The position numbers were made by a program, and so were the translations under genes. A stretch of 64,000 nt of DNA, from assembly GCF_014191425.1 (NCBI RefSeq), contig NZ_JACHWP010000001.1, forward strand, positions 868,001 through 932,000, read 5' to 3'. This stretch comes from Helcobacillus massiliensis. GTDB lineage: Bacteria; Actinomycetota; Actinomycetes; Actinomycetales; Dermabacteraceae. Shown piece after piece: positions 5,561-32,663 of the stretch (position 1 is the stretch's first letter; each line of letters starts with the position of its first letter). The notes under the pieces are model-generated. The model worked only from the letters and a program-made list of their open reading frames with translations. It was not told the DNA's origin and did not search any database.

Positions 5561-6547
5561 TCAGCGGATGCGGCGGGCGCGGCAGATGCTGATGACCATG
5601 CGCTGCACGGTCCAGTGGGGGTCGCGTTCGTTGCCCTTCACACCGTGGTCGGCGGAGGCGACGGCCTGGATCGCGGCGGCGAGTCCGCGGTCGGTCCATT
5701 GGCGGGCCTCCCGGGCCTGATTGCGGAACAGCCAATCGGGCATGCCGACGGACTGCGCGGTGGCACCCGGCGCCGCCGCCCTGGCCACATCCCGCAGTTT
5801 GCGGGCGAAGCTCGCGACGAGCGGCACGGGATCCACACCGGCGAGCTCCGCGTGGCGCAGCAGGGCGAGGGCTTCGCGCTCCTTGCCGCCGATCGCGGCA
5901 TCGGCCACGGCGAACGCGGTGGTCTCCACCCGCCCGGCGGTGAGCGCCTCGACGTCGCGCAGGGTGATCGGGCCTGCCTCCTCCTTCGGTTCCGGCTGTG
6001 TATCGGACAGCAGCTGCTGACAGGTGGCGGCGAGCTCTGCGAGGTCGGAGCCGAAGGCGTCAACGAGGGCGTGGACGGCGTCGGTGGCGATGCGCCGGCG
6101 GGCACGGGAGAACTCGGAGAGTGTGAACGCGTGCTTGTCGTTCAGCTTCTTGATCGGGTCGGCCTTCACCCAGGGAGCACCGGACTTCCTGATGGTGTCC
6201 AGGAGCTTCTTGCCGCGCTGCTCCCCGCCGTGGCGCAGCACGAGGGTGACGCCGTCCTCGGGCTGCTGCACGTAGTCGATGAGCGCGTCGAGCAGCTGGT
6301 CGTTGGCGCGGCCGAGGTTGTCGATGAGGACGAGGCGGGCGTCGCCGAATAGGGACGGTGCGGTGACCTGCCGCAGTTCACCGGGCGTGGTGTCGCCGGC
6401 CTGCAGGTCGTGGATTTCGACCTCGGGGTCCTTCTCCCGGACGAGTGTGCGGAGGCGGTCAGCGGCCCGCTGCAGCAGCAGCGGTTCTCTGCCTGTCAGC
6501 AGCACCACCGGGGCGGGTGCGACGCTGTGCCATTCCACCTGGGCCAT
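5561..6547 (-). CDS. holA: DNA polymerase III delta subunit
   Basis: Clamp-loader subunit that opens the beta sliding clamp. The 328-residue protein shows VVLLTGREPLLLQRAADRL at the N-terminus, FGDARLVLIDNLGRAND in the ATPase-like fold, and the C-terminal helical domain with LLRHAELAGVDPVPLVASFARKLRD, all as in actinobacterial HolA. GGGAGG lies four bases before the ATG. It follows comEC, whose reading frame runs 89 bases into holA. comEC-holA adjacency is common in bacteria. The ATPase fold lacks a Walker A motif, as is normal for delta. Confidence 0.95.
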   Translation of the reverse strand: MAQVEWHSVAPAPVVLLTGREPLLLQRAADRLRTLVREKDPEVEIHDLQAGDTTPGELRQVTAPSLFGDARLVLIDNLGRANDQLLDALIDYVQQPEDGVTLVLRHGGEQRGKKLLDTIRKSGAPWVKADPIKKLNDKHAFTLSEFSRARRRIATDAVHALVDAFGSDLAELAATCQQLLSDTQPEPKEEAGPITLRDVEALTAGRVETTAFAVADAAIGGKEREALALLRHAELAGVDPVPLVASFARKLRDVARAAAPGATAQSVGMPDWLFRNQAREARQWTDRGLAAAIQAVASADHGVKGNERDPHWTVQRMVISICRARRIR

Positions 6548-9167
6548 GGAACCTCCCTGTTGACCGGACCGAGTCTAGATCAGAGCGCTGGGGGTGCACA
6601 CGCCACGCGCCGCCGCCGTCGCTGCTGATGAGTGTGAGGCCGTGCAGGTCACTGCGCACGATGGTCGCGCCGCGATCGCTGATCAGCCTCAGCGCATCCG
6701 GGTGGGGGTGGCCGAACGTGTTGTCCTCCCCCACTCCGATCACCGCCAGCGACGGTGCGAGCTGACGGTACAGGGCGTCGTCCTGGCGGCGGGACCCGTG
6801 ATGCGCCACCTTCACGACGTCGGCATGCCCTGCGCCGAGCTCCGCCAGGGCGGCCTGGGCCGCCGGTTCGAGATCGCCGAGGGCGACGAGCCGGGCTCCG
6901 TCGGCCCACGTGAGGGCGACGGTGACGGAACAGTCGTTGGCCTCCGCCTGCTCGCCGGAGGAGCTCTCGCGGGCGGCGACGCTGGTGATGGTGTCGGCAT
7001 CCGTCGGCCAGAGGACGTCCAGGCGGCCCTGCCCGAGCGTCAGGGCGTCGCCCCGCACCGCGGTGCGGACGTTCGTGGTGGCGGGCAGATGCGGGGGTGT
7101 GGAGGTGTCCAGGGGACACACCCAGGCCGCCGACGGAGCCCGCTCCCCCGTCAGCGCAGGCAGGCCGCCGGTGTGATCGGCGTGGGGGTGGGTGAGGACC
7201 ACCAGGTCGATGCGGTCCACACCGAGCGCATCGAGGCAGCCGGTGAGCGCCTGCGGGTCGGGCCCGGTGTCGATCAGCACCACGGGTGCCGACGGATCCG
7301 GCGCCATTCGAGTCAGCAGGGCGTCGCCCTGACCGACGTCGCACAGCGCCATCGTCCACGCCGGTGGCGCGAACCGAATGCTCGCAGATTGCACGATGCC
7401 GGGCCCGGCGGCGATGAGGACGAGGCAGGCGGCGAGCGCCCACGCGGCGGGCCGGTGCCGCTGCCACGTCAGGGCGAGCACCCCGGTGAGCACCACCGCG
7501 GCGAGGAGGGCGCCGCGCGCCCCGTCGGGTACGGGGATCTGCGCGCCGGGCAGGATTCGGCTCCACTCGGCGATCTGAATGACGGCTTCGGCTCCCCAGC
7601 CGGCGACCTGCAGCATCGGAGCCGCGACGCCGGGGCTCACCAGAGCGACCGTGAGAGCGAGGAACGCGACGACGGTGGTGGGGGCGACGACGATCTCCGC
7701 GGCCATGTTCGCGGGAACCGCCCAGAGGGACACTTCGGGGCGCAGGAGGATCAGCACCGGTGTGCACGCCGCCTGCGCAACGAGCGGCACAGCGACGGCC
7801 AGCGCGATGATCTCCGGCACCCGGTCAGCGGTCAGTTCACGGATCACGGCGGCGGTGGGCCGCGCGAGGGTGAGGATCGCGCCGGTGGCTGCGGCGGACA
7901 GGATGAAGCCGACAGACGCCGCGAGGGGCGGCCACAGCGCGCTGTAGGTGATGACGGTCAGACAGAGGGCGTTGAGGGCGCTGGTGCGGATGCCGATGAA
8001 CCGCGCGACCAGCAGCGGCAGCACCATCGCGAACGCCCTCAGCAGACTCGGTTCGGGACCGACGATCAGCAGGTATCCCACCGCGGACGCGATGGACATC
8101 AGCACTCGGATCCGGCGCCGCACTCCGAGCAGCAGCAGCGGGATCGCCGCGCAGGCGCACGCGAGGGCGATGTTCGCGCCCGATGCCGCCACCAGATGGG
8201 TGAGCCCGGAGATCTTCATCGCCTCATCCAGCTCCTCGCTCATGCCGGTGGTGTCGCCGATGGCCATGCCGCGCACCAGGGCGGCGCGATCGGCGGGCAG
8301 GACGGACGTGGCGGCCTGCAGATGCTGGTGGAGCCGTCCGCGCAGCTGAGCCGGTCTCCACGGGCCCGTCAGGTCGAGGCCGTGGGCGGGGCGGATCTCG
8401 GCGGCGTCGATGAACACGGTGGTGCCGCGCCGGTCGATGCGGCCGCGCACCTGCACCTGGTCCCCTGGCAGCAGCCGTGCGTCCCCGCGGGTCGAGGAGT
8501 CGAGCGCGACGATCACGCGAGTGTGGTCCGGCAGCTCGACCCGGTCGCGGCCGAGGCGTGCTGACCGCTCAACGGGGTCCGCATGCGCGGTGACGCGGTC
8601 TCCGGCAGTGCTGAGCTCGGTTTCCCCGCTGTTGTCGGTGCGCCTCTGCGCCCGGATGAGAGCCGGTGGGGTGCGGATGCGCAGGTCGATCGTCATCATC
8701 AGGTCGGGGGCCGACGGGTCCGTGCGGGCCGCGACAGCACGGTCCAGCGGCACGAGCTGTTGCTCCTGCGCGTCGGTGCGCAGCAGCTGCACCGGCCCCG
8801 TGATGCACAGGACCACCGCAGTCACGACAGCGGTCGCTGTGAGGTGGGTCCGTGCCGGGGATGGCGGGTCGACGCGGTCGTCCTCGAGGCGACGGTGCCG
8901 CCGAGTGATGATCGCGGTCCCCAGCGCCACCAGCAGGCCCCCGGCGAGGACGGCGCGGCCGCTCTCCAGACCGGACAGCACACCGGTGATCGCTGCCGCC
9001 CACAGGATGACGGCGGCTGGGACGAGCCGGCTGCGGACCCGGCGATCCGGCGGCATCGGCGCGGCCGGATCGCCGCCCAGCGAGCCTCGGGCGGGGCGTT
9101 CACCAGAGGCGGCGTCGCCGGCTCTGAGGGTGCGTCGCCCAGGTCGGTCAGACTGTCGCGGAGTCAC
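6459..9167 (-). CDS. comEC: ComEC/Rec2 DNA-uptake channel
   Basis: Inner-membrane channel that brings single-stranded DNA into the cytoplasm during transformation. The 902-residue protein has N-terminal membrane segments, a DUF4131 region, the competence domain (RALVRGMAIGDTTGMSEELDE, then GLTHLVAASGANIALA) with many transmembrane helices. A C-terminal metallo-beta-lactamase domain carries LTHPHADHTGGL near residue 660. Start is GTG at 9167 with GGAG seven bases upstream, overlapping the comEA end by 20 bases. The last 30 or so residues (RRTRPGG onward) overlap holA and look unlike the family, so the natural stop may have been lost. Confidence 0.94.
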   Translation of the reverse strand: MTPRQSDRPGRRTLRAGDAASGERPARGSLGGDPAAPMPPDRRVRSRLVPAAVILWAAAITGVLSGLESGRAVLAGGLLVALGTAIITRRHRRLEDDRVDPPSPARTHLTATAVVTAVVLCITGPVQLLRTDAQEQQLVPLDRAVAARTDPSAPDLMMTIDLRIRTPPALIRAQRRTDNSGETELSTAGDRVTAHADPVERSARLGRDRVELPDHTRVIVALDSSTRGDARLLPGDQVQVRGRIDRRGTTVFIDAAEIRPAHGLDLTGPWRPAQLRGRLHQHLQAATSVLPADRAALVRGMAIGDTTGMSEELDEAMKISGLTHLVAASGANIALACACAAIPLLLLGVRRRIRVLMSIASAVGYLLIVGPEPSLLRAFAMVLPLLVARFIGIRTSALNALCLTVITYSALWPPLAASVGFILSAAATGAILTLARPTAAVIRELTADRVPEIIALAVAVPLVAQAACTPVLILLRPEVSLWAVPANMAAEIVVAPTTVVAFLALTVALVSPGVAAPMLQVAGWGAEAVIQIAEWSRILPGAQIPVPDGARGALLAAVVLTGVLALTWQRHRPAAWALAACLVLIAAGPGIVQSASIRFAPPAWTMALCDVGQGDALLTRMAPDPSAPVVLIDTGPDPQALTGCLDALGVDRIDLVVLTHPHADHTGGLPALTGERAPSAAWVCPLDTSTPPHLPATTNVRTAVRGDALTLGQGRLDVLWPTDADTITSVAARESSSGEQAEANDCSVTVALTWADGARLVALGDLEPAAQAALAELGAGHADVVKVAHHGSRRQDDALYRQLAPSLAVIGVGEDNTFGHPHPDALRLISDRGATIVRSDLHGLTLISSDGGGAWRVHPQRSDLDSVRSTGRFHGPGGMAQRRTRPGGAADRQRTAAAAAGR

Positions 9168-10038
9168 GCAGCTTCTCCAGCGTGGCCGGGCCGATTCCGC
9201 TCACCTCGGTGAGGGAGTCGACGCTGGGGAACGGGCCGTTCGCGTCCCGGAACTCGATGATGCGCTGGGCGATGGACGGGCCCACTCCGGGCAGTTCCTG
9301 CAGCTCCTGAGCGGTGGCGGTGTTGATGTTGATGCGCCCGTCGGCTCCCCCACCGGGCCCGCCGGTGCTGGTTCCGCGCGCTTCGGCGGGCCCGCCCCCG
9401 CTGCCCGGGCTGCTGGAGCCGGTGGTGCCGGTGCTGCCGGGTGAGCCGATGGTGCCGGCGCTGTACCCGGGCGGCGGTTCCTCCCCGTGGGCGAGGACAT
9501 GGATGTGCTCACCGTCCTGGAGAGGGCGGGCGAGGTTGAGGGAGGTGGTGTCGGCGTCGCCGGTGAGGCCGCCGGCGGCGCGCACAGCATCGTGCACGCG
9601 CGCGCCCGCCGGAACCCGGACCACGCCCTGGTTCGGCACCTGCCCGGTGACGTAGACGTACATGACCCCGGCGGCCGGTTCCGGTCCCTCTGCCGGGGCC
9701 GCAGGATCGCCGGGGCCGGGAGTCGAAGCGGGGGCGGGCTGCGGGCGCTCCGCTCCCCCACCGGTCCCGCCACCATCGCTGGCGGCAGTTCCCGGATAGG
9801 TGCGGGCGGCGGCAGCGGGCGGCACCACCGTGCCGGAATCGCTCCCGGCCGTCACCAGCCGGGCCGCCAGCACCACGACGGCGATGACGGTTGCGAACAC
9901 GAGCACGCGGGTGAGGGTGACGGCGCTCCGGACGCGTTCGGTGAGGGTGGGGCGTGCCCACTTCTCCAGATCGTCCCAGCTGCTGGCCTGTGTGTGCGGG
10001 GCCGCTCGGCGGCCCTTCCGCGTATCCCTCTGACTCAT
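9148..10038 (-). CDS. comEA: ComEA-type DNA receptor
   Basis: Membrane-anchored DNA-binding protein that pulls incoming DNA across the envelope. The 296-residue protein has a short cytoplasmic basic start, one membrane helix (about residues 43-63), a Pro/Gly/Ala-rich linker and an SLBB domain (VMYVYVTGQVPNQGVVRVP). A second Gly/Ser linker follows, then a C-terminal helix-hairpin-helix pair (ININTATAQELQELPGVG and SGIGPATLEKL). It overlaps comEC, so the two are co-translated. TAGCGT six bases before the ATG suggests a leaderless transcript. Pilus and ComF genes are not in this window. Confidence 0.95.
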   Translation of the reverse strand: MSQRDTRKGRRAAPHTQASSWDDLEKWARPTLTERVRSAVTLTRVLVFATVIAVVVLAARLVTAGSDSGTVVPPAAAARTYPGTAASDGGGTGGGAERPQPAPASTPGPGDPAAPAEGPEPAAGVMYVYVTGQVPNQGVVRVPAGARVHDAVRAAGGLTGDADTTSLNLARPLQDGEHIHVLAHGEEPPPGYSAGTIGSPGSTGTTGSSSPGSGGGPAEARGTSTGGPGGGADGRININTATAQELQELPGVGPSIAQRIIEFRDANGPFPSVDSLTEVSGIGPATLEKLRDSATV

Positions 10039-10145: not shown

Positions 10146-10799
10146 TCACAGACCGAACATCAGCACCCACTGGTTCCAGAACATCACGACGATCAGAACG
10201 ATCACGAGCAGGTACCAAGCGAGGGTGAGCACCACCCAGGAGCGCAGCACCCGTCGGACGGCCCCCTGGGCACCGATATGCCCGGTCTCCACCAGGCGCG
10301 CCACCACCGAGAAGAACATGGGGGCGCTGGCCACCCACGCTACGAGGCACCAGGGGCAGAGGGCGTGGATGAAGAAGATCGCGGAGATCGCCAGCCAATG
10401 GATGAACGCGAACGAGAACGCCACTCCGCCGAACACCGCCCATTCGAACCAGCGCGGCAGGAGGACCCGGGACATCATCAGCGCGCCGACGGCCGCCATG
10501 ATCGCGAACCCGCCGATGCCGATCAGCGGGTTCGGGATGCCGAACGTGGACGCCTGCCACGTGTTCAGCATGGTGCCGCAGGAGATGAACGGGTTGACGT
10601 CGCACCCGAGCTTCGCGTGCGGGTCCTTCAGCAGGGTGAACTTATCGAGGGTGAGTGCAACCGACGCCCACCAGCCGAGGAAACCGCCGATCAGCAGGAC
10701 GAGCCCGACCGTGCGCTGAGGGGCGCGCGGGGCGGCATCCATATCGGCGCGGATCTCCGCATCCAGGTCCTGATAGTCCTCAACGGCGTGAGCGTTCAC
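10146..10799 (-). CDS. vitamin K epoxide reductase (VKOR) family protein
   Basis: Membrane quinone reductase that re-oxidises DsbA-type disulfide-forming proteins outside the membrane. The 217-residue protein has about five membrane helices, the loop pair Cys66 and Cys74 (GCDVNPFISCGTM), and the quinone-proximal CPWC at 148-151. GTG at 10799 is chosen because AGGA lies five bases upstream. It begins 34 bases after oleD on the same strand, so it may ride on the ole transcript. No DsbA-like partner gene is in the window. Actinobacterial VKORs have this length and four-cysteine arrangement. Confidence 0.93.
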   Translation of the reverse strand: MNAHAVEDYQDLDAEIRADMDAAPRAPQRTVGLVLLIGGFLGWWASVALTLDKFTLLKDPHAKLGCDVNPFISCGTMLNTWQASTFGIPNPLIGIGGFAIMAAVGALMMSRVLLPRWFEWAVFGGVAFSFAFIHWLAISAIFFIHALCPWCLVAWVASAPMFFSVVARLVETGHIGAQGAVRRVLRSWVVLTLAWYLLVIVLIVVMFWNQWVLMFGL

Positions 10800-10833: not shown

Positions 10834-11814
10834 TCAGCGGGAGCGGGTGGAGTAGTAGCGGCGCAGGATCTCGAAGCCCTCATCGATGCTGACCTTCGGC
10901 GTCCACTGCAGGCGCTCACGGGTGCGGCGCTGATCGAACCAGTGCGCGGTGGACAGCTGTTCGGCGAAGAACTCCGTCATCGGCGGTTCGTCATATCCCG
11001 GTCGGATCTCCCAGAGCCGCTCGATGATGCGCCCGGCGATGCGCGCCACTGACGACGGGATCCGCAGCGTGGGACGCTCAGCACCGACAGCGGCGGCGAA
11101 GCCGCCGATGATGTCGCGCACCGTGCGCGGTTCGCCGTTGGTGACGACGAACGACTCGCCGTGCACCTCGTCGATTCGGTTCAGCGCCGCCACGATCGCG
11201 TCCGCGGCGTTGGTGACGTAGATGGTGTCGATCAGGGCGTTGCCCTCGTCCAGCAGCGGCATCCGCCCCTGCTTGGCGCGGCCGCCGATGCGCTCGACCA
11301 GCTGCGTGTCGCCCGGTCCCCACACCACGTGCGGGCGGATCGAGGTGACGAGCATGCCGTCCTCTCCGTCCGCAGCCATGGCGACGAGCTCCGCCGCTGC
11401 CTTCGTCCGCGCGTACGGGCTGGAGGCGCGCTCCGGTTCCGGGGCGGTGGTGCCGAGGCCCACGATCGACTGGCCGAAGTGCGCGACCGACGGAGAGGAG
11501 ATGTTGACGAGCTTGCCGCCGCCCTGTGCCTTCATCGCCTCAACGATGTGGCGGGTGCCCTCGATGTTGATCTTCCGGTACTCCTCTTCGGGACCGGAGA
11601 TCGACACCTTCGCAGCGAGGTGCACAACGGCGTCCTGCCCGGCGACGGCGCGGCGGACATCGGCCTCCTCCGTGAGGGAGCCGGTGATGTCGGCGACGCC
11701 GTCGATGCCGGCGGGGCGGCGCTGGAATGCGGACACCTCATGGCCGGCGTCGCGCAGAGCCCGCGCAACATACCCGCCGAGCATGCCGGATGCGCCGGTG
11801 ACGAGGACCTTCAC
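10834..11814 (-). CDS. oleD: 2-alkyl-3-oxoalkanoate reductase OleD
   Basis: Short-chain-reductase-fold enzyme that reduces the beta-keto acid made by OleA to a beta-hydroxy acid in long-chain olefin synthesis. The 326-residue protein has the NAD(P) loop VTGASGMLGG at residues 5-14 and the catalytic Tyr134-x3-Lys138 in SSPYARTK, typical of the extended SDR family. GTG at 11814 overlaps the TGA of oleBC (GTGA) and has AAGG eight bases upstream. The family alone covers many sugar epimerases and sterol dehydrogenases; the OleD call rests on its place directly after oleA and oleBC. Confidence 0.9.
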   Translation of the reverse strand: MKVLVTGASGMLGGYVARALRDAGHEVSAFQRRPAGIDGVADITGSLTEEADVRRAVAGQDAVVHLAAKVSISGPEEEYRKINIEGTRHIVEAMKAQGGGKLVNISSPSVAHFGQSIVGLGTTAPEPERASSPYARTKAAAELVAMAADGEDGMLVTSIRPHVVWGPGDTQLVERIGGRAKQGRMPLLDEGNALIDTIYVTNAADAIVAALNRIDEVHGESFVVTNGEPRTVRDIIGGFAAAVGAERPTLRIPSSVARIAGRIIERLWEIRPGYDEPPMTEFFAEQLSTAHWFDQRRTRERLQWTPKVSIDEGFEILRRYYSTRSR

Positions 11815-14519
11815 AGCTTCGCCTTCTTTCCGGACAGTGCCACCTCGGCCCACGCGGCCAGGCGCGTGCGGTCGATCTTGGAGTTGTGGCGGATATCGGT
11901 GGGCAGCGTGGTGGTGGTGAACACGGCGGTCACTTCGGCGCCGGTGCGCTCGCGCACGGTCCGACGGATGCTGTCCTCCAGTTCGTGCGGCGCCGGCTTC
12001 GGCTGTGCGGGCCTGCCCGGACGGTGGTCCTCCTCCATCTCCACCACCGCGATGATCTGCTGGGTGCCGGCGGGGCCGACGCCGCAGACGCCGGCGCGGC
12101 GCACGCCCTCGACCGATTCCACGGCCTGCTCGATCACGACCGGGGTGCGGACGCCCTCGGCCGTGGGGATCACGTGCGCGAGGCGGCCCTCCACCCAGAG
12201 CCGGCCCTGGTCGTCGAGGTGGCCGATGTCGCCGGTGGCGTGGTAGCCCTCGATGCGCATCGCCTCCCGGGTGGTGCGCCACAGCATGAGGTAGCGGTCG
12301 CGGACATGGGCTGCGCGGACCAGGATCTCACCGGTCACCCCTGCGGTGGTGACGGCGTGGTCGGCGGCGCGGCCGAGCTCATCGACCGGCGCGATGGCGA
12401 TCTCCACGCGCGGAACGGGTCGGCCCACGCAGACGCCGTTGCCACTGCCGGCCTCCTCGATGCCGTCGAGGTCGATCGCGGCGACCGCGAGGCATTCGGT
12501 CATGCCGTACGGGGAGAACGACTGCGCGTTCGGCATCAGCGTGCGCAGCTGCCGCAGCAGCGGCGCCGGGATCGGCGCGCCGGCGGAGAAGAAGCTGGGC
12601 ACACGCGCCAGCGCTTCCCGCTGTTCAGTGGTCAGCTCGCCGGCGGTGTCGATGATGTTCTTCAGTGCTGCGGGGGCGGTGAACACGGCCGGGGAGCCGA
12701 GCGCATCCACCGCATCTGCGAGAGCCGCAGCGGTCAGCTCACCGGGGCGGGTGACATCCATATCCGGCACCACACTGGGGGCGCCGAGCGAGGGACCCAG
12801 CAGCGCGAACGGTGCGAACCCGGCGACCAGGCCGCGCTCGGGACGCAGCTGCAGGGTCTCGCCGACGGCGCTGAACATGGCGCTGGCCTGACGGTGCGTG
12901 TAGGCGGCGCCCTTCGCGGGGCCGGTCGAGCCGGAGGTGAACAGGATCAGGGCGTCCTCGTCCGGGTCCAGGTCTTCGGCGCGGGTATCAGCGGCGAGGG
13001 CGCGCATCTGCGAACCCTCGTTCATCAGCTCCGCCATCGAGGTGGTGACGCCGAGGACGGCGCGGTCCACGGTCGGCAGGGTCTGCACACTGATCTTCTG
13101 CCCCGGCCAGCCGAGCACCTTCGCGCCGATGAGGGCACGGTCGATGCCGATGATGAAGTCCGGGTGGGAGCCCACGACCGCGCGGGTCAGGCCCTTCACG
13201 CCGAGACCCGCATCGGCCACAACGGCGACGGCCCCGATGCGCAGGCAGGAGTAGAGCACGGCGGTGAGGTCCGCACCCGGCTCCACCAGCACGGACACGC
13301 GCGAGCCCCGACGGATGCCGTGGGCGAGCATGCCGGCGCTGAGGTCGGCGATGCGCTCCTCGAGGCGGCGCCAGGTGATGGTGCGGCGGCCCCCGTCGGG
13401 CCCGCCGTTCATCTCCACCACGGCGGACAGGTCAGCGGTGGCGGGGTCCTCGGCGAGCTCGGTGATGCGGGAGCCGAGCGGCACGTGCGGCGGCTGGTCC
13501 GCGAACGTGGAGACGGCCTTCGGGCCGCGCTCCAGCGAGGGGACAGCGGTGTCGCCCGGCTTCTGGTCGCCGTAGACGTCCTGCAGCCACTCGGCGATGG
13601 TGCCGGCGACATCGGCGTCGTCCCACACGAGGTGGGAGGCGTTCTCGAAGCGGTGCACCTGGGCGTGCGGAACGCGTTCAAAGAGGTCGCGCAGGAACCG
13701 GTCGGAGAAGACGACGTCGCGCGGGCCCCACAGGAACAGAGACGGCACCTTCATGTCCTTCAGGCCCTCGGCGAGGCGCTCGAGCGTGGCGCGGGAGGGG
13801 TGCATGGCGTCGGCCGGGATGTCCGCCACGAACTGTTCGATGCCGGCGCGGCGCTTGGAGCCGCGGTACGGGGCGAGGTACGCCGCCTTCACCTCAGAAG
13901 GCAGCGGCGGCTTGGAGAGGTTGATGGTGCCGCGGAGGAACGCGTCGGTCCCCGAGGTCATGGTGCGGATGATCGAGGGCGCGGAGGCGATCTGCAGCGC
14001 CTTCGGCAGGGACTCGCCGAGCCCCTGGTAGATCGCCGTGTTGGTGAGGATCATGCCGACGACGTCGTGCTTGTTGTCCAGCGCCCAGCCGATGGAGATG
14101 ATGCCGCCCCAGTCATGGCCGACGGTCACGATCGGACCGCGCAGGCCGAGACTGTCGGTGAACAGGGAGAGGTCGGTGATGCGGTCCTGGAGGCCGCGGA
14201 TGCGCTTCGTGCGCTCCGAGTAGCCCATCTCCAGCTGGTCGACTGCGATGACGCGCCAGTCGATGTCGTCGCGGAACAGGGTGCGGAACAGGAAGGAGTA
14301 GGTGGGGTTGCCGTGCACCGCGAGGATGGTGCCGCGCGGTGTCACACCGCGCTCGGCGAGAAGATCGATGTTGTCCAGGTAGTGCCACTGGCGGTCGTCT
14401 CCGAAGGAGTCCTTCACGGTGGCGAACCTGTGCAGGCGAGGGTCCACTCCAGGCTGCTCGGGGATCTCCGGCGCTGCTGTACGGCCGGCGTCGGTGCTCT
14501 GGTGTCCGATCGTCACCAC
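11811..14519 (-). CDS. oleBC: OleBC fusion: beta-lactone decarboxylase + beta-lactone synthetase
   Basis: Two enzymes of olefin synthesis in one 902-residue chain. Residues 1-320 are an alpha/beta hydrolase resembling haloalkane dehalogenases, with the nucleophile Asp136 in VGHDWGG and late SHLVWDD carrying the catalytic His (OleB, which releases CO2 from the beta-lactone). From about residue 350 follows an AMP-forming adenylate domain with the P-loop FTSGSTGPAKGA near 528 (OleC, which closes the beta-lactone). Such fusions are known in actinobacteria such as Micrococcus. Two adjacent GTG codons (14519 and 14516) are possible; GGAGG precedes both and the second forms GTGA with the oleA stop. 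Confidence 0.93.
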   Translation of the reverse strand: MVTIGHQSTDAGRTAAPEIPEQPGVDPRLHRFATVKDSFGDDRQWHYLDNIDLLAERGVTPRGTILAVHGNPTYSFLFRTLFRDDIDWRVIAVDQLEMGYSERTKRIRGLQDRITDLSLFTDSLGLRGPIVTVGHDWGGIISIGWALDNKHDVVGMILTNTAIYQGLGESLPKALQIASAPSIIRTMTSGTDAFLRGTINLSKPPLPSEVKAAYLAPYRGSKRRAGIEQFVADIPADAMHPSRATLERLAEGLKDMKVPSLFLWGPRDVVFSDRFLRDLFERVPHAQVHRFENASHLVWDDADVAGTIAEWLQDVYGDQKPGDTAVPSLERGPKAVSTFADQPPHVPLGSRITELAEDPATADLSAVVEMNGGPDGGRRTITWRRLEERIADLSAGMLAHGIRRGSRVSVLVEPGADLTAVLYSCLRIGAVAVVADAGLGVKGLTRAVVGSHPDFIIGIDRALIGAKVLGWPGQKISVQTLPTVDRAVLGVTTSMAELMNEGSQMRALAADTRAEDLDPDEDALILFTSGSTGPAKGAAYTHRQASAMFSAVGETLQLRPERGLVAGFAPFALLGPSLGAPSVVPDMDVTRPGELTAAALADAVDALGSPAVFTAPAALKNIIDTAGELTTEQREALARVPSFFSAGAPIPAPLLRQLRTLMPNAQSFSPYGMTECLAVAAIDLDGIEEAGSGNGVCVGRPVPRVEIAIAPVDELGRAADHAVTTAGVTGEILVRAAHVRDRYLMLWRTTREAMRIEGYHATGDIGHLDDQGRLWVEGRLAHVIPTAEGVRTPVVIEQAVESVEGVRRAGVCGVGPAGTQQIIAVVEMEEDHRPGRPAQPKPAPHELEDSIRRTVRERTGAEVTAVFTTTTLPTDIRHNSKIDRTRLAAWAEVALSGKKAKL

Positions 14520-15547
14520 TCAACCTCCATCATTGCGGTGTTCAGACCGGAGCCCACACCCATCATCAGAATCTTGTCGCCGCGGGAGAACTTGTCCTGG
14601 TGCTTCGCCACGGTCATGGGGACCGCTTCGGCGGCGATGTTCCCGAGGTCCGGGAAGATCAGCGGCACGCGGTCGAAGTCGAAGCCCGCCGCCTTCGAGA
14701 AGGCGCGGGAGTACACCATCGACACCTGGTGGATGACCACCCAGTCGCAGGCGTTGTAGTCACGGCCGGACTCCTTGGCGGCGCGCCAGGTGTCCAGCAC
14801 GAGCGCCAGTCCGTTCTCGAGCAGGCCGGTGGAGTCGGTCTGCATGTGGTCCATGCTGCCGATGCACAGTTCGTGGTGCTCGGTGCCCGCCCGGGACTGG
14901 GTGTGCAGCAGACGGTGCCCCTCCGGGTGCCGGTCGGCTGGGCCGATGACAGCGGCGGCGGCGCCGGACCCGAGCGTGAGGGAGGCGAACTGGTTGTTGT
15001 AGTCGTCGCGGGTGGCGGTGCGCTGGTTGAGGCGGCCGATGGTGCGGCGCTGCACCTCTTCGACGTCCTCCGCGCCGACCACGAGCACGTAGTCGAGCTG
15101 GCCGGCGTCGATCAGGCCGGCGGCCATCGTCATGGCGTTCACGAAGCCGAGGCAGGCGTTGGTGATGTCGAAGTTCATCGTGGACGGCTGCATGCCGAGC
15201 GCGGCGTGGATGTGCGTGGACATCGCCGGCTCCAGATGCTTGCGGGACACCGAGGCGTTGATCAGCAGACCCACCTGGTCGCGAGAGATGCCCGCCTCGG
15301 CGATGGCCCGCTCAGCGGCCTGGACCACGCCGTGCTTCCACCCGTTCTCCGGGTCCTTCCACCAGCGGCGCTCGTACACGCCGGCCACGCGCTGCAGCAT
15401 GCCCTTGGGGATGCGCAGGCGCTTGCGGGCGGGGGCGAGCATCTCATCGAGCTCGTCCGAGGTCACGGGGACCTGCGCCTCCACCGCGGTCATGGAGAGG
15501 ATCGCGGCGTTGCGATGCTCGAACGAGGCGTTGCTGCTGAGAACCAT
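14513..15547 (-). CDS. oleA: acyl-CoA head-to-head condensing enzyme OleA
   Basis: Thiolase-superfamily enzyme that joins two fatty acyl-CoAs in a non-decarboxylative Claisen condensation, the first step of long-chain olefin formation. The 344-residue protein has the nucleophile Cys132 in DITNACLGFVNAM, the catalytic His in WVVIHQVS and Asn in GVGSGLN, the FabH-like triad. ATG at 15547 is chosen from GGAAG five bases upstream; it also gives the usual OleA length. It is first of the oleA-oleBC-oleD series, each joined by a GTGA-type overlap. FabH was considered, but the oleBC neighbour and sequence style favour OleA. Confidence 0.93.
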   Translation of the reverse strand: MVLSSNASFEHRNAAILSMTAVEAQVPVTSDELDEMLAPARKRLRIPKGMLQRVAGVYERRWWKDPENGWKHGVVQAAERAIAEAGISRDQVGLLINASVSRKHLEPAMSTHIHAALGMQPSTMNFDITNACLGFVNAMTMAAGLIDAGQLDYVLVVGAEDVEEVQRRTIGRLNQRTATRDDYNNQFASLTLGSGAAAAVIGPADRHPEGHRLLHTQSRAGTEHHELCIGSMDHMQTDSTGLLENGLALVLDTWRAAKESGRDYNACDWVVIHQVSMVYSRAFSKAAGFDFDRVPLIFPDLGNIAAEAVPMTVAKHQDKFSRGDKILMMGVGSGLNTAMMEVEW

Positions 15548-24940: not shown

Positions 24941-26737
24941 ATGAGCAGAGTTCTTTCAGCAGTCGCCTGGCCGTATGCGAACGGCCCCCGCCATATCGGT
25001 CATGTCGCCGGCTTCGGAGTCCCATCCGATGTGTTCTCGCGCTACATGCGCATGGCGGGTCATGACGTGCTGATGGTCTCCGGCACGGACGAGCACGGCA
25101 CGCCCATCCTCGTCGCCGCCGATTCTGAGGGCGTGAGCGCTCGGGAGCTCGCCGACCGCAACAACCGGATCATCGTGGAGGACCTGGTGCAGCTGGGCCT
25201 GTCCTACGACCTGTTCACCCGCACCACCACGGTCAACCACTACTCCGTGGTGCAGGAGATGTTCCGCGCTGTGCGGGACAACGGCTACATGATCGAGCAG
25301 ACCACGCACGGCGCCATCTCCCCCTCAACCGGCCGCACCCTCCCTGACCGCTACATCGAGGGCACCTGCCCGATCTGCGGGACCGACGGCGCCCGGGGCG
25401 ACCAGTGCGACGCCTGCGGCAATCAGCTCGACCCCACCGACCTCATCAACCCGCATTCGCGGATCAACGGCGAGACCCCGCAGTTCATCGAAACCCAGCA
25501 CTGGTTCCTGGACCTGCCGTCGCTGGCGGAGGAGCTGGGACGCTGGCTGGACCAGCGGGAGAGGACCGGCCTGTGGCGGCCGAACGTGATCCGCTTCAGC
25601 CAGAACTTCCTGAAGGAGATCCGCCCGCGCGCCATCACGCGCGACATCGACTGGGGCATCCCGGTGCCGGGTTGGGAGGACCAGCCCACCAAGCGCCTGT
25701 ACGTCTGGTTCGATGCGGTCATCGGCTACCTCTCCGCTTCCATCGAATGGGCCCGTCGCAGCGGCGATTCGGACGCGTGGAGGAAGTGGTGGAACGATCC
25801 CGAGGCCCTGTCCTACTACTTCATGGGCAAGGACAACATCGTCTTCCATTCCCAGATCTGGCCGGCGGAGCTCATCGCCCACAACGGTGAGGGCGCCAAG
25901 GGCGGCTCCCCCGGTGTGTACGGGGAGCTGAACCTCCCCACCGAGGTGGTCTCCAGTGAGTTCCTCACCATGGAGGGCAAGAAGTTCTCCTCGTCCAAGG
26001 GCGTGGTCATCTACGTGCGGGACATCCTCTCCCGCTACCAGCCGGATGCGCTGCGGTACTTCATTTCGGCGGCGGGTCCGGAGAACAACGACGCGGACTT
26101 CACCTGGAGCGAGTTCGTCTCCCGCACCAACAACGAACTGGTCGCCGGCTGGGGCAACCTGGTGAACCGCACCGCAGCGATGATCGCGAAGAACGTCGGC
26201 GAGATCCCCGCCGCCGGCGAGATGGAGCAGATCGACCTCGACCTGCTGGCGAAGATCCGCAACGGATTCGACACCGTCGGCGATCTGATCGCGCACCACC
26301 ATCAGCGCTCCGCCATCAACGAGATCATGCGTCTGGTCGGCGAAGCGAACGGGTACGTCTCCGCGACCGAGCCCTTCAAGATGAAGGCGGAGGAGCAGCG
26401 TCCGCGCCTGCTGACCGTGCTGCACACGCTCGCCCAGGCCGTCACGGACCTGAACACGATGATCTCGCCGTTCCTGCCGCACTCCTCCAACGAGGTGGAG
26501 AAGGCCCTCGGCGGGGACCGCGTGGTCGCGCCGATGCCGCGCATGGAGGATGTGGACGACCTCGACGGCGGTCCCGGCTATCCGATCATCACCGGCGACT
26601 ATTCGGACGTGCCCGCTTGGGGCCACCGCCCGGTCACCGTCGGCGCCCCGGTTGCGAAGCCGAAGCCGATCTTCCAGAAGCTGGACCCGTCGATCGTGGA
26701 TGAGGAGCTGGAGCGGCTCGGCGTGAGCGACGCATGA
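24941..26737 (+). CDS. metG: methionyl-tRNA synthetase
   Basis: Charges tRNA-Met. The 598-residue class I synthetase has the HIGH motif as PRHIGHV (residues 16-22), zinc-knuckle cysteines in [18 protein letters not shown], and the KMSKS loop as KFSSSKG near residue 347. The anticodon-binding domain follows ([11 protein letters not shown]). It lacks the C-terminal tRNA-binding EMAP-like domain found in some bacteria, as is usual in actinobacteria. Its TGA overlaps the start of the cbiX-like gene (ATGA). TatD, RsmA and RsmI, frequent metG neighbours, are not here. Confidence 0.98.
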
Positions 26738-27438
26738 GCGAGCCCCTGTTGCTGGCGATCGCGCACGGATCCCGCCTGGACTCCGCTGTCACCGCCACCC
26801 AGGACATCGCCCGCTCCGCGGCCCGCATCGCCGGCGCCCCCTTCGCTGACGCGTACCTGGACCTCGCGGAGCCGTCCGTGCAGGCGCGTGCCGCGGAGCT
26901 GGCGGCGAACCAGTGCCCGGGAGCGATCGCGGTGCCGCTGCTGTTCACGGAGGCGTTCCACGCCACCTCCGATGTTCCGGCAGCACTGAATGAGGCGCAG
27001 GCGGCGACGGGTCTGCCGATCCACCGCGCCGGCATCATCGGCACCGGTGACGATGTGCTCGCGGTCCTCGCGGACCAGGCACGGGCCCACACCTCACCGG
27101 GTCGCGAGGACTCCCCTGTTGTGCTGCTGGCGGTGGGATCCTCACACGAGCAGGCGAACGCCGCGGTGGCGGACCTCGCGGACCGGCTGGGCGCTGCCCT
27201 GGGCCGACGGGTGCGGGCGGGGTTCGCGACCTGTGCTCCGCGAGCGGCGGACATGATCACCGCGGACGAGCCGGGCCTGCTGCTGCCGCTGTTCACGGCG
27301 CCCGGTCTGCTGCTCGAGCGCACCGCGGCATCGGCCGCCGCAGCCGGTTGGGACACCGCCGGGCACCTCGGCGCAGCGCTCGGTCCGGTGGTGGCGCAGC
27401 GCTATCTGGACTGCGCTGCCGCCCTCAGCGCCGACTGA
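26734..27438 (+). CDS. CbiX-type sirohydrochlorin chelatase
   Basis: The 234-residue protein contains two copies of the CbiX half-domain: [13 protein letters not shown] at the start (metal-binding His) and [21 protein letters not shown] after residue 125, with [15 protein letters not shown] carrying the second His. The family inserts iron or cobalt into sirohydrochlorin. Next to nirB, cobA and hemD, iron insertion for siroheme (SirB-type) is the natural reading; cobalt chelation is possible. It is translationally coupled to metG by ATGA and its end overlaps the convergent hemD end by 14 bases. Confidence 0.87.
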
Positions 27439-28360
27439 CCCGTTCGGGCAGCTGCTCGGCCATGAGCTGGATCATCGCACCCATGCGCTGACGCTGAGGC
27501 GCGATCGGGGTGATCCCTTCGGCTTCGAGGGGCTCCGCGGTGACGGGGCCGACGGCGACGGCCTGCACATCGCTGCGCAGCGCATCGACGACGTCGTCGC
27601 GGCGGCCGAGTTCGTCGGCTCGGGCGAAGAGGGCATCCACGGACGGCGCGGCCGTGAACGTCACCGCGTCGATGCGGCGCAGGCAGATACCGCTGACCAG
27701 TTCGTCGACGGGGTCCAGCTCCTCCGGCGGCTCCCACCGGTAGGGCGCCACCACCACGAGGTCGTGCCCCTCCCCCTCATCGGCGAGCCGGGTGAGGACA
27801 TCGGGGTGGATGTAGCCGTGGCGCTGCAGGCCGACGGGGCCCGCGGGGACGCCTTCGGCGAGGGCGACGTCGACCATCGATGCGGACGTCTCCAACGGTG
27901 CGGCCGGTGCGTCGGGCAGGCCGCGGCCCCGGACAGCGCCGCGGGCCTTCGCACCGCGGCAGATGATGCGCGTGTCGGCGAGGTAGGCCATGGCGGCCTG
28001 CGCGAGATCGGGGTCGGCGCTGCTGAGGGCGTCGAGCCACGCAGTGAAGCCCTGTGCCGTGGTGACGAAGAACAGTGCGGGACGCACGTCCAGCAGGCGG
28101 CGCGTGTCGGTGAGCAGCTGGGCGTCGGCACCCGTCGGCACGATCCTCATGGTGGGGGCGAGCAGGACGTCGGCGCCGCGGCGGCGCAGGGCATCGGCCT
28201 GGTCATCGGCGCGTCGGCTCGCCGTCACCGCGATCCGCAGGCCCGCCAGCGGCTGCTGCGTGCCCTGTGCGGTCGTGGGTCCCGGTGCGGCCGACGGGTC
28301 CGCCGATCCCGCGTTGCCGGCGGCGGTAGGCGGTGTCTGCTGGGCGTGGTCGGTGGGCAT
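27425..28360 (-). CDS. hemD: uroporphyrinogen-III synthase
   Basis: Closes and inverts ring D of hydroxymethylbilane to give uroporphyrinogen III, the precursor of siroheme and heme. The 311-residue protein has a 37-residue low-complexity N-terminus and then LAGLRIAVTASRRADDQADALRRRGADVLLAPTMRI, the characteristic HemD start. The C-terminal half has FTAAPSVDALF and VAVGPVTAEPLEAEGI. AAGGAG precedes the ATG. It follows cobA by 14 bases in the nirB-cobA-hemD order, so this copy probably serves siroheme; a separate hemD for heme may exist elsewhere. Confidence 0.9.
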   Translation of the reverse strand: MPTDHAQQTPPTAAGNAGSADPSAAPGPTTAQGTQQPLAGLRIAVTASRRADDQADALRRRGADVLLAPTMRIVPTGADAQLLTDTRRLLDVRPALFFVTTAQGFTAWLDALSSADPDLAQAAMAYLADTRIICRGAKARGAVRGRGLPDAPAAPLETSASMVDVALAEGVPAGPVGLQRHGYIHPDVLTRLADEGEGHDLVVVAPYRWEPPEELDPVDELVSGICLRRIDAVTFTAAPSVDALFARADELGRRDDVVDALRSDVQAVAVGPVTAEPLEAEGITPIAPQRQRMGAMIQLMAEQLPERVSRR

Positions 28361-28374
28361 GCCGTCTCCTTCTC

Positions 28375-29412
28375 TCAGAGGCCGTCGGTGATGTCCGCGG
28401 TGGTGGTGTGCAGTCCCGCCACCTCACCGATCACGATGATCGACGGGCTCGTCAGGCCGGCGTCGGCGGCGTCCTGCGCAACAGCGGCGAGGGTGCTGTG
28501 GCAGCGTGCCTCATCGCCATGGAATCCGCGGTGGATGACGGAGGCGGGCGTGGCCGGATCCAGTCCGGCCTCCAGCAGGGCTCGCTGGGTGAGCGGCAGA
28601 GTGCCCATGCCCATGAGGATCATGACGGAGCCGCCCAGCTGCACGAGCGCTGCGGCTTCTGCGCCGTCGATCGCTTCGTGGCCGGAGATGATCGTCACCG
28701 CGCGGGTGATGCCGCGGTGGGTGGCGGGGATTCCGGCCCTCGCGGGCACCGCCAGGGCGCTGGTGATGCCGGGGACCACGTCCACGCGGATGCCGTTCTC
28801 TGCGAGGTGCTGCCATTCCTCGGATCCGCGGCCGAAGATGAACGGATCGCCGCCCTTCAGCCGGACCACACGGGCGCCGGTACGGGCGAAGACCGTCATC
28901 TGGTCGTTGATGAGCTCCTGGATCATCGAATGGTGCCCGGGCTTCTTCCCCACATCCACGATGAGGGACCCGGGGGCGAGCCGGAGGCAGTCGCCGGCGG
29001 CACCGAGACGGTCGGCGAAGATGACGTCGGCCTCCGCGATGGCGCGCATGGCGGCCAGAGTGAGCAGCTCCGGATCGCCGGGCCCGCTGCCGACGAGCGC
29101 GACACTGCCTGGTACGGAGGGCGTCGGCCCCTCCCCCATCGGTTCGCCGCTGCGCGGCGCTTCTTCGCGGATGGTGATGGTGCCGAAATCGCGCGTCGCC
29201 CACTGCAGCACGGTGTCCTGCAGCCCCTGTTCACGGGCGAGGGCGTCGAAGCGCTGCGCGCGCCGCTGGGGCTCATCCGTGTCGAGGATGACGTGGGCGC
29301 CCTCAGCGGCGAACGCCTGCGCGGCCTGCCAGCTGAGGGGGCGGCCCGCCGTCTCCTGATCGACGGTCCGCCCCTGCCAGCTGCGCTCGAGGTGGAACGC
29401 GGTGGGCCTCAC
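28375..29412 (-). CDS. cobA: uroporphyrinogen-III C-methyltransferase with atypical N-terminus
   Basis: Methylates uroporphyrinogen III twice to precorrin-2 for siroheme. From about residue 103 the SUMT domain is complete: VALVGSGPGDPELLTLAA, DVIFADRL, VRLKGGDPFIFGRGSEE and PGITSALAVPARAGIP. The first 95 residues include AAQAFAAEGAHVILDTDE, which recalls the Rossmann fold of CysG/Met8, but the GxGxxA loop for NAD is missing. The enzyme may therefore lack precorrin-2 dehydrogenase activity. GTG at 29412 overlaps the nirB stop (GTGA). Confidence 0.92.
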   Translation of the reverse strand: MRPTAFHLERSWQGRTVDQETAGRPLSWQAAQAFAAEGAHVILDTDEPQRRAQRFDALAREQGLQDTVLQWATRDFGTITIREEAPRSGEPMGEGPTPSVPGSVALVGSGPGDPELLTLAAMRAIAEADVIFADRLGAAGDCLRLAPGSLIVDVGKKPGHHSMIQELINDQMTVFARTGARVVRLKGGDPFIFGRGSEEWQHLAENGIRVDVVPGITSALAVPARAGIPATHRGITRAVTIISGHEAIDGAEAAALVQLGGSVMILMGMGTLPLTQRALLEAGLDPATPASVIHRGFHGDEARCHSTLAAVAQDAADAGLTSPSIIVIGEVAGLHTTTADITDGL

Positions 29413-32102
29413 ACTGTGCGCCCGGAGCCGATGGCTTCGCCGCGCGGTCCGCGGAACGCGATCTCGGGGCCGGAGATGAGGACCGATTCGCGCTCCTCCA
29501 GGGTGGCGGGGCGGTTCTGGTCACGTTCGGGGACGCGGGCGAACAGCGGGTCGGCGGCCTCGGGGGCGTTGATGAAGGAGCGGAAGCGGGCGAGCTTCTG
29601 GGGGTCCTTCAAGGTGGCGACCCATTCGTCCTCGTGGCCGTCCACGAACTCCTGCATCTCCTTCTCCAGTTCGTCGGCGATGCCGAGGGAGTCCTCGACG
29701 ACGACGGCGTGGACGTGGTCGATGCCGCCGTCCATCGAGTCGATCCACGCAGCGGTGCGCTGCAGCTTCTCCGCGGAGCGGATGTAGTAGCCGAGGAAGC
29801 GGTCCACGAGTGAGACGAGGGTGTCGTCGTCGACGTCGGAGGCGAGCAGTTCGGCGTGGCGGGGCGAGAAGCCGCCGTTGCCGCCGACGTACAGGTTCCA
29901 GCCCTTATCTGTGGCGATCACGCCGATGTCCTTCCCACGGGCCTCCGCACATTCGCGGGCGCAGCCGGACACGCCGAGCTTGAACTTGTGCGGGGAGCGC
30001 AGGCCCTTGTAGCGCTCCTCCAGGAGGATCGCCATGGACACGGAGTCCTGCTGGCCGAAGCGGCACCAGGTGGAGCCCACGCAGCTCTTCACCGTGCGCA
30101 GGGACTTGCCGTACGCCTGGCCGGACTCCATCCCGGCGTCCACGAGCCGCTGCCAGATATGGGGCAGCTGTTCGAGGCGGGCGCCGAACAGGCCGATGCG
30201 CTGCGCGCCGGTGATCTTCGTGTACAGGTTGAAGTCGGCGGCGACTTCCGCGATGACGCGCAGACGCTCCGGAGTGATCTCACCGCCGGGGACGCGCGGC
30301 ACCACGGAGTAGGTGCCGTCCTTCTGCATATTGCCGATGAATCGGTCGTTGGTGTCCTGCAGCTCGCCGAGCCCTCGGTCGAGGATGTAGCGGTCCCGCT
30401 GGGAGGCGAGGATGGAGGCGACGGTCGGCTTGCAGACGTCACAGCCGTGACCGGTGCCGTATTCCGCGATGACCTCGTCGAACGTGGAGAGGTCATTCTC
30501 CCGGATCTTCGCGTACAGCTCGGAGCGCGAGTAGTCGAAGTGCTCGCACAGCGCGGTGGACACGGCGATGCCGGCCTTCGCGAGCTGCGCGGCGAGGATC
30601 TTCTGCATGAGCGGCACGCAGGAGCCGCACTGGGTGCCGGCGTTCGTGCAGGCCTTCAGGGTGGCGATGTCGCGGGCGGGGGTCTCGAAGTCCCCCTCGC
30701 CGTTGACGGCGCACTTGATGGTGCCGGAGGTGACGTTGTTGCACGAGCAGACCACGACTTCGTCGGGGATGTCGCCGGTGTCGGGCAGCTCACCGCCGCC
30801 GGCGGCGAGGTAGGCCGACGGGTCCCCCGGCAGCTCGCGGCCGATGTAGGCGCGCAGGGTCGAGTAGTTCTCTGCGTTGCCGACGAGGATGCCACCGAGC
30901 AGGACCCGCACATCGGAGGACAGGATGAGCTTCTGGTAGATCCCCTGCGTGGGGTCGGCGAAGACGACGTCCAAGGTGTTCTTCTGGGCGCTCTTGGCAT
31001 CGCCGAAGCTGGCGACGTCGATGCCGGAGAGCTTCAGCTTGGTGGAGGAGTCGGGTTCGCCGAACACGGCCTTTCCGCCGAGGAGGCGGTCGACGACCAC
31101 TTCCGCCATCGTGTTGGCGGGGGCGACCAGGCCGTAGCAGCGGCCCTCCACAGCGGCCACTTCACCGATCGCCCACACCCGGTCGATGGAGGTGGCGCAG
31201 TCCTGCCCAACCATGATGCCGCCGCGCGGCCCGATCTCGAAGCCGCCGACCTTCGCGAGCTCATCGCGGGGGCGGATGCCGACGGCGAGGCAGACCAGGT
31301 CCGCAGGGATCTCGGAGCCGTCGGAGAGTCGAACGGCACGCACGTTGGAGGCGGCGCTCGCCAGCGCGTCGGCTTCGGAGGCCGACGGCTTCCGCGAGGA
31401 GATCCGCTTCTCGATGGAGTCGAGGGAGACGCCCATGTGGAGGGTGATGCCGCGCTGTTCGATGAGGCGGTTGAGCAGTCGGCCGCCGCCTTCGTCGAGC
31501 TGAGCGGGCATCAGCCAGTCGGCGAGTTCGACGAGGTGGACGTCGTACCCTTCGGCGGCGAGACCACCGGCTGCTTCGAGACCGAGAAGGCCGCCGCCGA
31601 GGACGACGGCGGAGCCGGTGCGGTTCTCGTCGGACTGCATGCCCTGCACGCAGTCGGCCATCTGGTCGACGTCGTCGACGGTGCGGTACACGAACACGCC
31701 CTTGGTGTCCCAGCCGGAGATCGGCGGGGTGAAGGCATTGGAGCCGGTGGCCATGACGAGGTGGTCGTAGCCGTAGATGGTGCCGGAGCGGGTCCGTACC
31801 TGCCGCAGCTCGGTGTCGATGGAGTTGACGCGGTCGCCGAGGACGAGGCCGACGTGCTCGTCCTCCCACAGGGTGGGGTCGCCGAGGGTGAGGTCGTAGG
31901 AGCGGTCCCAGCGCTTGGCGAGGTTGACGCGGTCGTAGGGCGCCAGGGCCTCTTCGGAGATGACGGTGACCTTGAAGCGGTCCTCGGTGTCGCGGCGGCG
32001 CATCGTCTCGGTGAAGCGGTGTGCGGCGGGTCCGCCGCCCACCACGACGACGTGCTCGACCGCCGGTTCGTTCGTGCTGTGCGCGAGAGTGTCAGTGGTC
32101 AT
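29409..32102 (-). CDS. nirB: NAD(P)H nitrite reductase large subunit
   Basis: Cytoplasmic siroheme enzyme reducing nitrite to ammonium for assimilation. The 897-residue protein has an FAD/NAD oxidoreductase region (VVVGGGPAAHRF at residues 20-31), then BFD-type [2Fe-2S] cysteines (VCSCNN near 449 and CTNAGTQCGSC near 487). The siroheme/4Fe-4S half follows, with SCVGSTWCRFG near 674 and GVSGCARECAEARG near 715. ATG at 32102 has AAAGGG seven bases upstream. It heads nirB-cobA-hemD, which supplies the siroheme. Unusually, nirD is divergent rather than downstream. Confidence 0.96.
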   Translation of the reverse strand: MTTDTLAHSTNEPAVEHVVVVGGGPAAHRFTETMRRRDTEDRFKVTVISEEALAPYDRVNLAKRWDRSYDLTLGDPTLWEDEHVGLVLGDRVNSIDTELRQVRTRSGTIYGYDHLVMATGSNAFTPPISGWDTKGVFVYRTVDDVDQMADCVQGMQSDENRTGSAVVLGGGLLGLEAAGGLAAEGYDVHLVELADWLMPAQLDEGGGRLLNRLIEQRGITLHMGVSLDSIEKRISSRKPSASEADALASAASNVRAVRLSDGSEIPADLVCLAVGIRPRDELAKVGGFEIGPRGGIMVGQDCATSIDRVWAIGEVAAVEGRCYGLVAPANTMAEVVVDRLLGGKAVFGEPDSSTKLKLSGIDVASFGDAKSAQKNTLDVVFADPTQGIYQKLILSSDVRVLLGGILVGNAENYSTLRAYIGRELPGDPSAYLAAGGGELPDTGDIPDEVVVCSCNNVTSGTIKCAVNGEGDFETPARDIATLKACTNAGTQCGSCVPLMQKILAAQLAKAGIAVSTALCEHFDYSRSELYAKIRENDLSTFDEVIAEYGTGHGCDVCKPTVASILASQRDRYILDRGLGELQDTNDRFIGNMQKDGTYSVVPRVPGGEITPERLRVIAEVAADFNLYTKITGAQRIGLFGARLEQLPHIWQRLVDAGMESGQAYGKSLRTVKSCVGSTWCRFGQQDSVSMAILLEERYKGLRSPHKFKLGVSGCARECAEARGKDIGVIATDKGWNLYVGGNGGFSPRHAELLASDVDDDTLVSLVDRFLGYYIRSAEKLQRTAAWIDSMDGGIDHVHAVVVEDSLGIADELEKEMQEFVDGHEDEWVATLKDPQKLARFRSFINAPEAADPLFARVPERDQNRPATLEERESVLISGPEIAFRGPRGEAIGSGRTV

Positions 32103-32137
32103 CAACTGGCCCTTTCCCAGAGGTCTGTTCATCGCCG

Positions 32138-32166
32138 ACGCTACCCTGAAGATCTGCGGGTCACCA
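32138..32166 (-). promoter_or_regulatory. possible nirB promoter
   Basis: On the minus strand TGGTGA (32166-32161) and TAGCGT (32143-32138) are 17 bases apart, giving a leader of about 29 bases that keeps the AAAGGG ribosome site. The -35 abuts the palindrome at 32165-32180. Confidence 0.35.
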
Positions 32167-32180
32167 GGACGAGCGTCCTG
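32165..32180. promoter_or_regulatory. 16-base palindrome between nirB and nirD
   Basis: CAGGACG and CGTCCTG form a perfect 7-base inverted repeat around AG. It lies in the middle of the 177-base divergent region and overlaps the possible nirB -35, so it is a candidate operator for nitrogen control of both nir genes. Confidence 0.5.
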
Positions 32181-32279
32181 TTCGGGTCCATTCGACGGGT
32201 GGGAGGACCAGTGTCCCCGCAGCCCAGCCGCCCGGGCACGACAATGGTGGAAACAGCACCTGAGCTGAAGGAGTGTTCC

Positions 32280-32663
32280 ATGACCGACGATCAGTGGCGC
32301 GAGGTGTGCCGGATTGACCAGTTGGAGAAGAACTGGGGCGAGGCAGCGCTGTTCGGCACCGAACAGCTCGCCGTGTTCCTCGCCTGGGACGGCCAGGTGC
32401 ACATCACCTCGAACATCGATCCGCGCACGCACCAGGGCGTGATGTCGCGCGGCATCGTCGGCGACCACGAGGTGGGCGGTGAGCGCCGACCCACGATCGC
32501 GAGCCCGCTCTACAAGGAGTCCTACGATCTGGAGACCGGCGAGTGCTACACCTCGCCGAACTTCCGCCTGTCCGTGTACGACTCCCGCGTCCGCGACGGC
32601 GTCGTGGAGGTGGATCTGTCCTCCGCAACCGAGGCTGTCCGACGGGAGCTGCCGCAGCGCTGA
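32280..32663 (+). CDS. nirD: nitrite reductase small subunit
   Basis: Partner of NirB. The 127-residue protein has the NirD fold: WREVCRIDQLEKNWGEAALF, FLAWDGQVHITSNIDP, GIVGDHEVGGERRPTIASPLYKESYDLETGECY. The Rieske cysteine-histidine pairs are absent, as is normal for NirD of NirBD enzymes, so it carries no iron-sulfur cluster. AAGGAG lies six bases before the ATG. It points away from nirB, so equal production would need coordinated control of two promoters. Confidence 0.93.
   Translation: MTDDQWREVCRIDQLEKNWGEAALFGTEQLAVFLAWDGQVHITSNIDPRTHQGVMSRGIVGDHEVGGERRPTIASPLYKESYDLETGECYTSPNFRLSVYDSRVRDGVVEVDLSSATEAVRRELPQR

Follow-up and report, generated by a model that had tools for sequence, protein, structure and literature searches.

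The window analysed here is a stretch of 64,000 nucleotides from Helcobacillus massiliensis, and between positions 10834 and 15547 it holds three minus-strand open reading frames, where a sequence-only reading had placed a three-gene olefin cluster. The gene oleA (14513..15547, minus strand) encodes a thiolase-fold condensing enzyme of 344 aa with Glu106, Cys132, His273 and Asn303. It is followed by oleBC (11811..14519, minus strand), which codes for a fusion protein of 902 aa. The OleB half of this protein (approximately residues 1-325), annotated as a beta-lactone decarboxylase, carries Asn71, Asp136, Trp137, Asp268 and His296, while the OleC half (approximately residues 341-902), annotated as a beta-lactone synthetase, contains the P-loop TSGSTGPAKG at residues 528-537. 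The third gene, oleD (10834..11814, minus strand), encodes an NAD(P)H-dependent reductase of 326 aa with Ser107, Tyr134 and Lys138. OleB and OleC form a single uninterrupted reading frame, as in the fused oleBC type of the Micrococcales, and homologues of OleB, OleC and OleD all lie less than 5 kb from oleA, the distance criterion used in PMC7158056.

The best start of oleA was found to be the ATG at 15547, with GGAAG immediately upstream, and the longer mechanical frame reaching 15682 is unnecessary. At the oleBC/oleD junction the two genes share the bases GTGA (11814-11811). For oleA and oleBC the overlap is GTGA if oleBC starts at GTG 14516, and seven bases long if it starts at GTG 14519; the sequence fits either. 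The residues singled out by that reading, namely Cys132 of OleA, Asp136 of OleB, the P-loop of OleC and Tyr134 and Lys138 of OleD, are each at the position given. Gene identity, the order oleA-oleBC-oleD, the fusion and the active-site residues as given in that reading are all upheld.

The best match of the ligase half of OleBC, an AMP-binding domain, is PRK09274, a fatty acid CoA ligase family (E 1.1e-103, 347.3 bits, below the cut-off of 478), and the Xanthomonas OleC model is matched with an E-value of 7e-86. For OleD, the best model is the OleD reductase (E 6.6e-84). These E-values, like that of OleA given below, put the homology well above chance level. The NCBIfam equivalogs built on Xanthomonas and Shewanella give 288.8 bits against a cut-off of 900 and 247.6 against 850 for the OleC half, and 282.1 against 580 and 225.4 against 580 for OleD, and because these scores are far below the cut-offs the window's proteins are not filed under the equivalogs. 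The OleB half is an alpha/beta-hydrolase, whose PDB matches are hydrolases and haloalkane dehalogenases and whose NCBIfam haloalkane dehalogenase match (85.2 bits) is likewise below the cut-off, here 241. By likeness to the haloalkane dehalogenases, Asp268 would be the acid of the catalytic triad. Since both the neighbours and the residues agree, we read the low scores of OleB, OleC and OleD as a probable sign of divergence from Xanthomonas and Shewanella, the lineages after which the Ole models are named.

The distribution of the cluster was considered in 98 genomes, 47 from the family Dermabacteraceae (the window's own genome included) and 51 from the same order outside the family. At E 0.001 some OleA match is present in 88 of the 98, many of these being FabH-like. 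Strong matches (E <1e-90) occur in 45 of the 47 family genomes and in 18 of the 51 others, which suggests that the ole cluster is an old, inherited trait, in agreement with the statement in the available text of PMC7158056 that within a genus ole clusters are almost always present in all members or in none. The two family genomes with no strong match are G002 (98% complete, 3.9 Mb), for which a loss of OleA is probable, and G044 (74% complete).

The surroundings were inspected for 38 of the 63 strong-match loci, that is, 20 of 45 in the family, our own included, and 18 of 18 outside it. The order oleA-oleBC-oleD and the in-frame OleBC fusion were found in all 38. In the alignments, so were the Glu, Cys, His and Asn of OleA, the positions Asn71, Asp136, Trp137 and His296 of OleB, and Lys536 of OleC; the Ser, Tyr and Lys of OleD are present in 37, the contig of the remaining locus (L063) ending inside oleD. 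A motif search had pointed to loss of the OleB nucleophile in L063 and L064; this turned out to be an artefact of the motif. A more variable position is Trp299 of OleBC, three residues after the OleB histidine, which is Trp in 20 of the 38 loci. In the remaining 18 it is Ala, Pro, Ser, Gln, Thr or Val, and the listed exceptions start with loci outside the family.

A condensing enzyme of this fold could in principle be a second FabH with unrelated fatty-acid genes as neighbours, and the name that NCBIfam gives to the matching model, "3-oxoacyl-ACP synthase III", lends this idea something. The scores speak against it. The protein passes PRK09258 with 407.8 bits (cut-off 285, E 3.9e-122), and in the test for FabH-type membership it stays below both cut-offs, with 99.1 bits against 292.1 for NCBIfam fabH and 113.2 against 249. 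In the PDB, the best matches are 3s21 and 3row at 235.3 bits, entries titled 3-oxoacyl-[ACP] synthase III which we take to be Xanthomonas OleA; the best other entry reaches 72.5, and no FabH structure exceeds this value. Residues 11-344 are matched, and Glu106, Cys132, His273 and Asn303 align with identical residues in the OleA entries. The counterparts of Cys132 and Asn303 in the Xanthomonas enzyme are presumably Cys143 and Asn315; for the Glu and the His the numbers are 117 and 285, according to titles in the reference list of PMC7064751. The OleA signature EPxx[AS]x(14,18)DxxNACL, as given in the text of PMC7158056, was found by pattern search in the window's protein and in 37 of the 38 loci overall. 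The relative L051 lacks the strict signature, yet in the alignment it keeps all four catalytic residues.

The sequence-only reading had itself named clustering of OleA with FabH proteins as the observation that would count against it. A maximum-likelihood tree was therefore calculated from 55 rows: 38 OleAs, 14 FabHs (including the genome's own; the label denotes more than 150 bits to that protein) and 3 other KAS III-like proteins. The 38 OleAs group together, apart from the 14 FabH rows (support 97/99, midpoint root), in a tree that includes rows with long-branch warnings relative to the OleA or FabH sides (the FabH rows L103 and L105, as well as L099, L101 and L102). The family's OleAs form one group, within which that of the window joins four from the genus g6 (100/98). 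The genome also encodes a genuine FabH elsewhere, which passes the fabH cut-off (310.5 against 292.1) and whose flanking genes look to us like FabD and FabF. With the NCBIfam scores, the PDB scores and the tree all ruling out a FabH identity, we give a second FabH practically no chance, and on these sequence comparisons the window's protein is a true OleA, distinct from FabH.

We now consider what the cluster would produce. In the proposed pathway, OleA would condense two fatty acyl-CoAs, with no decarboxylation, to a beta-keto acid, which OleD would reduce to the beta-hydroxy acid. Ring closure to a beta-lactone would then fall to the OleC half of the fusion protein, and the OleB half would expel CO2 to yield a cis internal alkene. 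We infer every one of these reaction steps by carrying it over from published work on relatives. A different outcome would be that the pathway stops at the lactone and yields a beta-lactone natural product, as in the oleACD clusters of Streptomyces toxytricini and Nocardia brasiliensis described in the text of PMC7064751, with which the window shares homologues of OleA, OleC and OleD. Those clusters are, however, without oleB, whereas in the window the OleB half is present and in frame, adjoins oleA and has its active-site residues, and its nucleophile, histidine and haloalkane-dehalogenase-like Asn and Trp are kept in all 38 loci. A beta-lactone as the end product is disfavoured because OleB is intact, and we regard it as very unlikely.

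The three genes are thus, with high confidence, a complete olefin (head-to-head hydrocarbon) operon. Our confidence is slightly reduced because of a caveat on the actinobacterial OleAs: two clades have been reported, and in one of them one homologue was only weakly active with the test ester, as stated in the available sections of PMC7064751. The same source places proteins of the Micrococcales in the most active OleA group.

As to the nature of the alkenes, the supply of branched-chain precursors is relevant. According to the text of PMC5857589, Micrococcus luteus in which the branched-chain complex has been deleted shows a drastic drop in branched fatty acids and loses its olefins completely. 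The present genome has AceE (1302.9 bits, cut-off 859.9), a Kgd-like frame of 1316 aa with E1 and E2 domains, and a further E2 on contig C1. Contig C3 carries another, separate set, in which E1-alpha, E1-beta and E2 stand next to one another. An attempt to name this set as branched-chain by NCBIfam failed, no model being passed and the nearest ones being pyruvate dehydrogenase types (395.5 bits against 411.35 for E1-alpha). Since pyruvate and 2-oxoglutarate already have their enzymes, the C3 set most likely serves branched-chain substrates, and with a third, probably branched-chain dehydrogenase the prediction of branched alkenes is reasonable.

The Micrococcales olefins described in the accessible parts of PMC7158056 average C27-C29 and have iso or anteiso ends, and by analogy the products here would probably be of about the same length with the same kinds of ends. 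Kocuria and Kytococcus are given there as exceptions with shorter, partly straight-chain olefins, and the chain length could for this reason differ from that in Micrococcus. The prediction in the sequence-only reading of very-long-chain, probably branched internal alkenes can accordingly be called well founded by analogy.

Next to oleD lies a gene for a VKOR-family membrane protein (10146..10799, minus strand; PF07884, 126.9 bits), which starts 34 bases past oleD with GTG 10799 chosen as the start. It follows oleD in 19 of the 20 family loci, L052 being the exception, and in none of the 17 informative loci outside the family, each with a limited flank of about 2 kb after oleD; the eighteenth is uninformative because its contig (L063) ends inside oleD. 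One can speculate that the VKOR protein joined the olefin operon of the family in a shared membrane-redox role, so that disulphide or quinone chemistry would be tied to alkene production through co-regulation or a functional link, but we consider this improbable. The link is taken here as one of neighbourhood, with no claim of pathway membership, and the adjacency is a mild curiosity. Of the other neighbours, comEA comes after the ole genes in 19 of the 20 family loci, and a TIM-barrel gene lies ahead of oleA in 17 of them. In the window, two overlapping minus-strand frames at 6459-10038 look to us like comEA and comEC. As regards a link between com and ole genes, the terms oleA, VKOR and hydrocarbon were not found in the available portion of PMC8467076.

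Two further regions were noted. At 26734-32468 of the window, a nitrite/sulphite-reductase-type protein of 1019 aa adjoins genes for a tetrapyrrole methylase, HemD and CbiX, probably a set for nitrite or sulphite assimilation and sirohaem. A non-ribosomal peptide synthetase cluster is suggested elsewhere in the genome (G000:C14:5355-13588), where two AMP-binding domains lie in open reading frames of great length, 2318 and 1962 aa.

The GC-MS survey of Micrococcales in PMC7158056 contains no occurrence of Dermabacter, Helcobacillus or Brachybacterium in its available main text. Among the literature matches listed, no title treats ole genes in Dermabacteraceae. Sukovich 2010 reportedly lists Brachybacterium faecium. 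The family, with these three genera, would be one more family of likely alkene producers, and the finding of the cluster alters no concept.

Of the known systems, that of Xanthomonas campestris shares all four catalytic residues of OleA (Glu, Cys, His, Asn), which align between the window and several structures (3row, 3s21 and others). In Xanthomonas, oleB and oleC are separate genes. The fusion of the two has been observed earlier in certain Actinobacteria, typically Micrococcales, as stated in the text of PMC7064751, and the Micrococcales operon is described as oleA, oleBC, oleD in that of PMC7158056. Likened by these published descriptions, the operon of Micrococcus luteus has the same genes and the same fused oleBC as the window, which differs from it in belonging to another family, with Dermabacter, Helcobacillus and Brachybacterium as relatives, and in having the VKOR gene after oleD. 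The window's cluster is therefore an ordinary, intact one of a well-known kind; that Micrococcales have a fused OleBC and make alkenes is already published.
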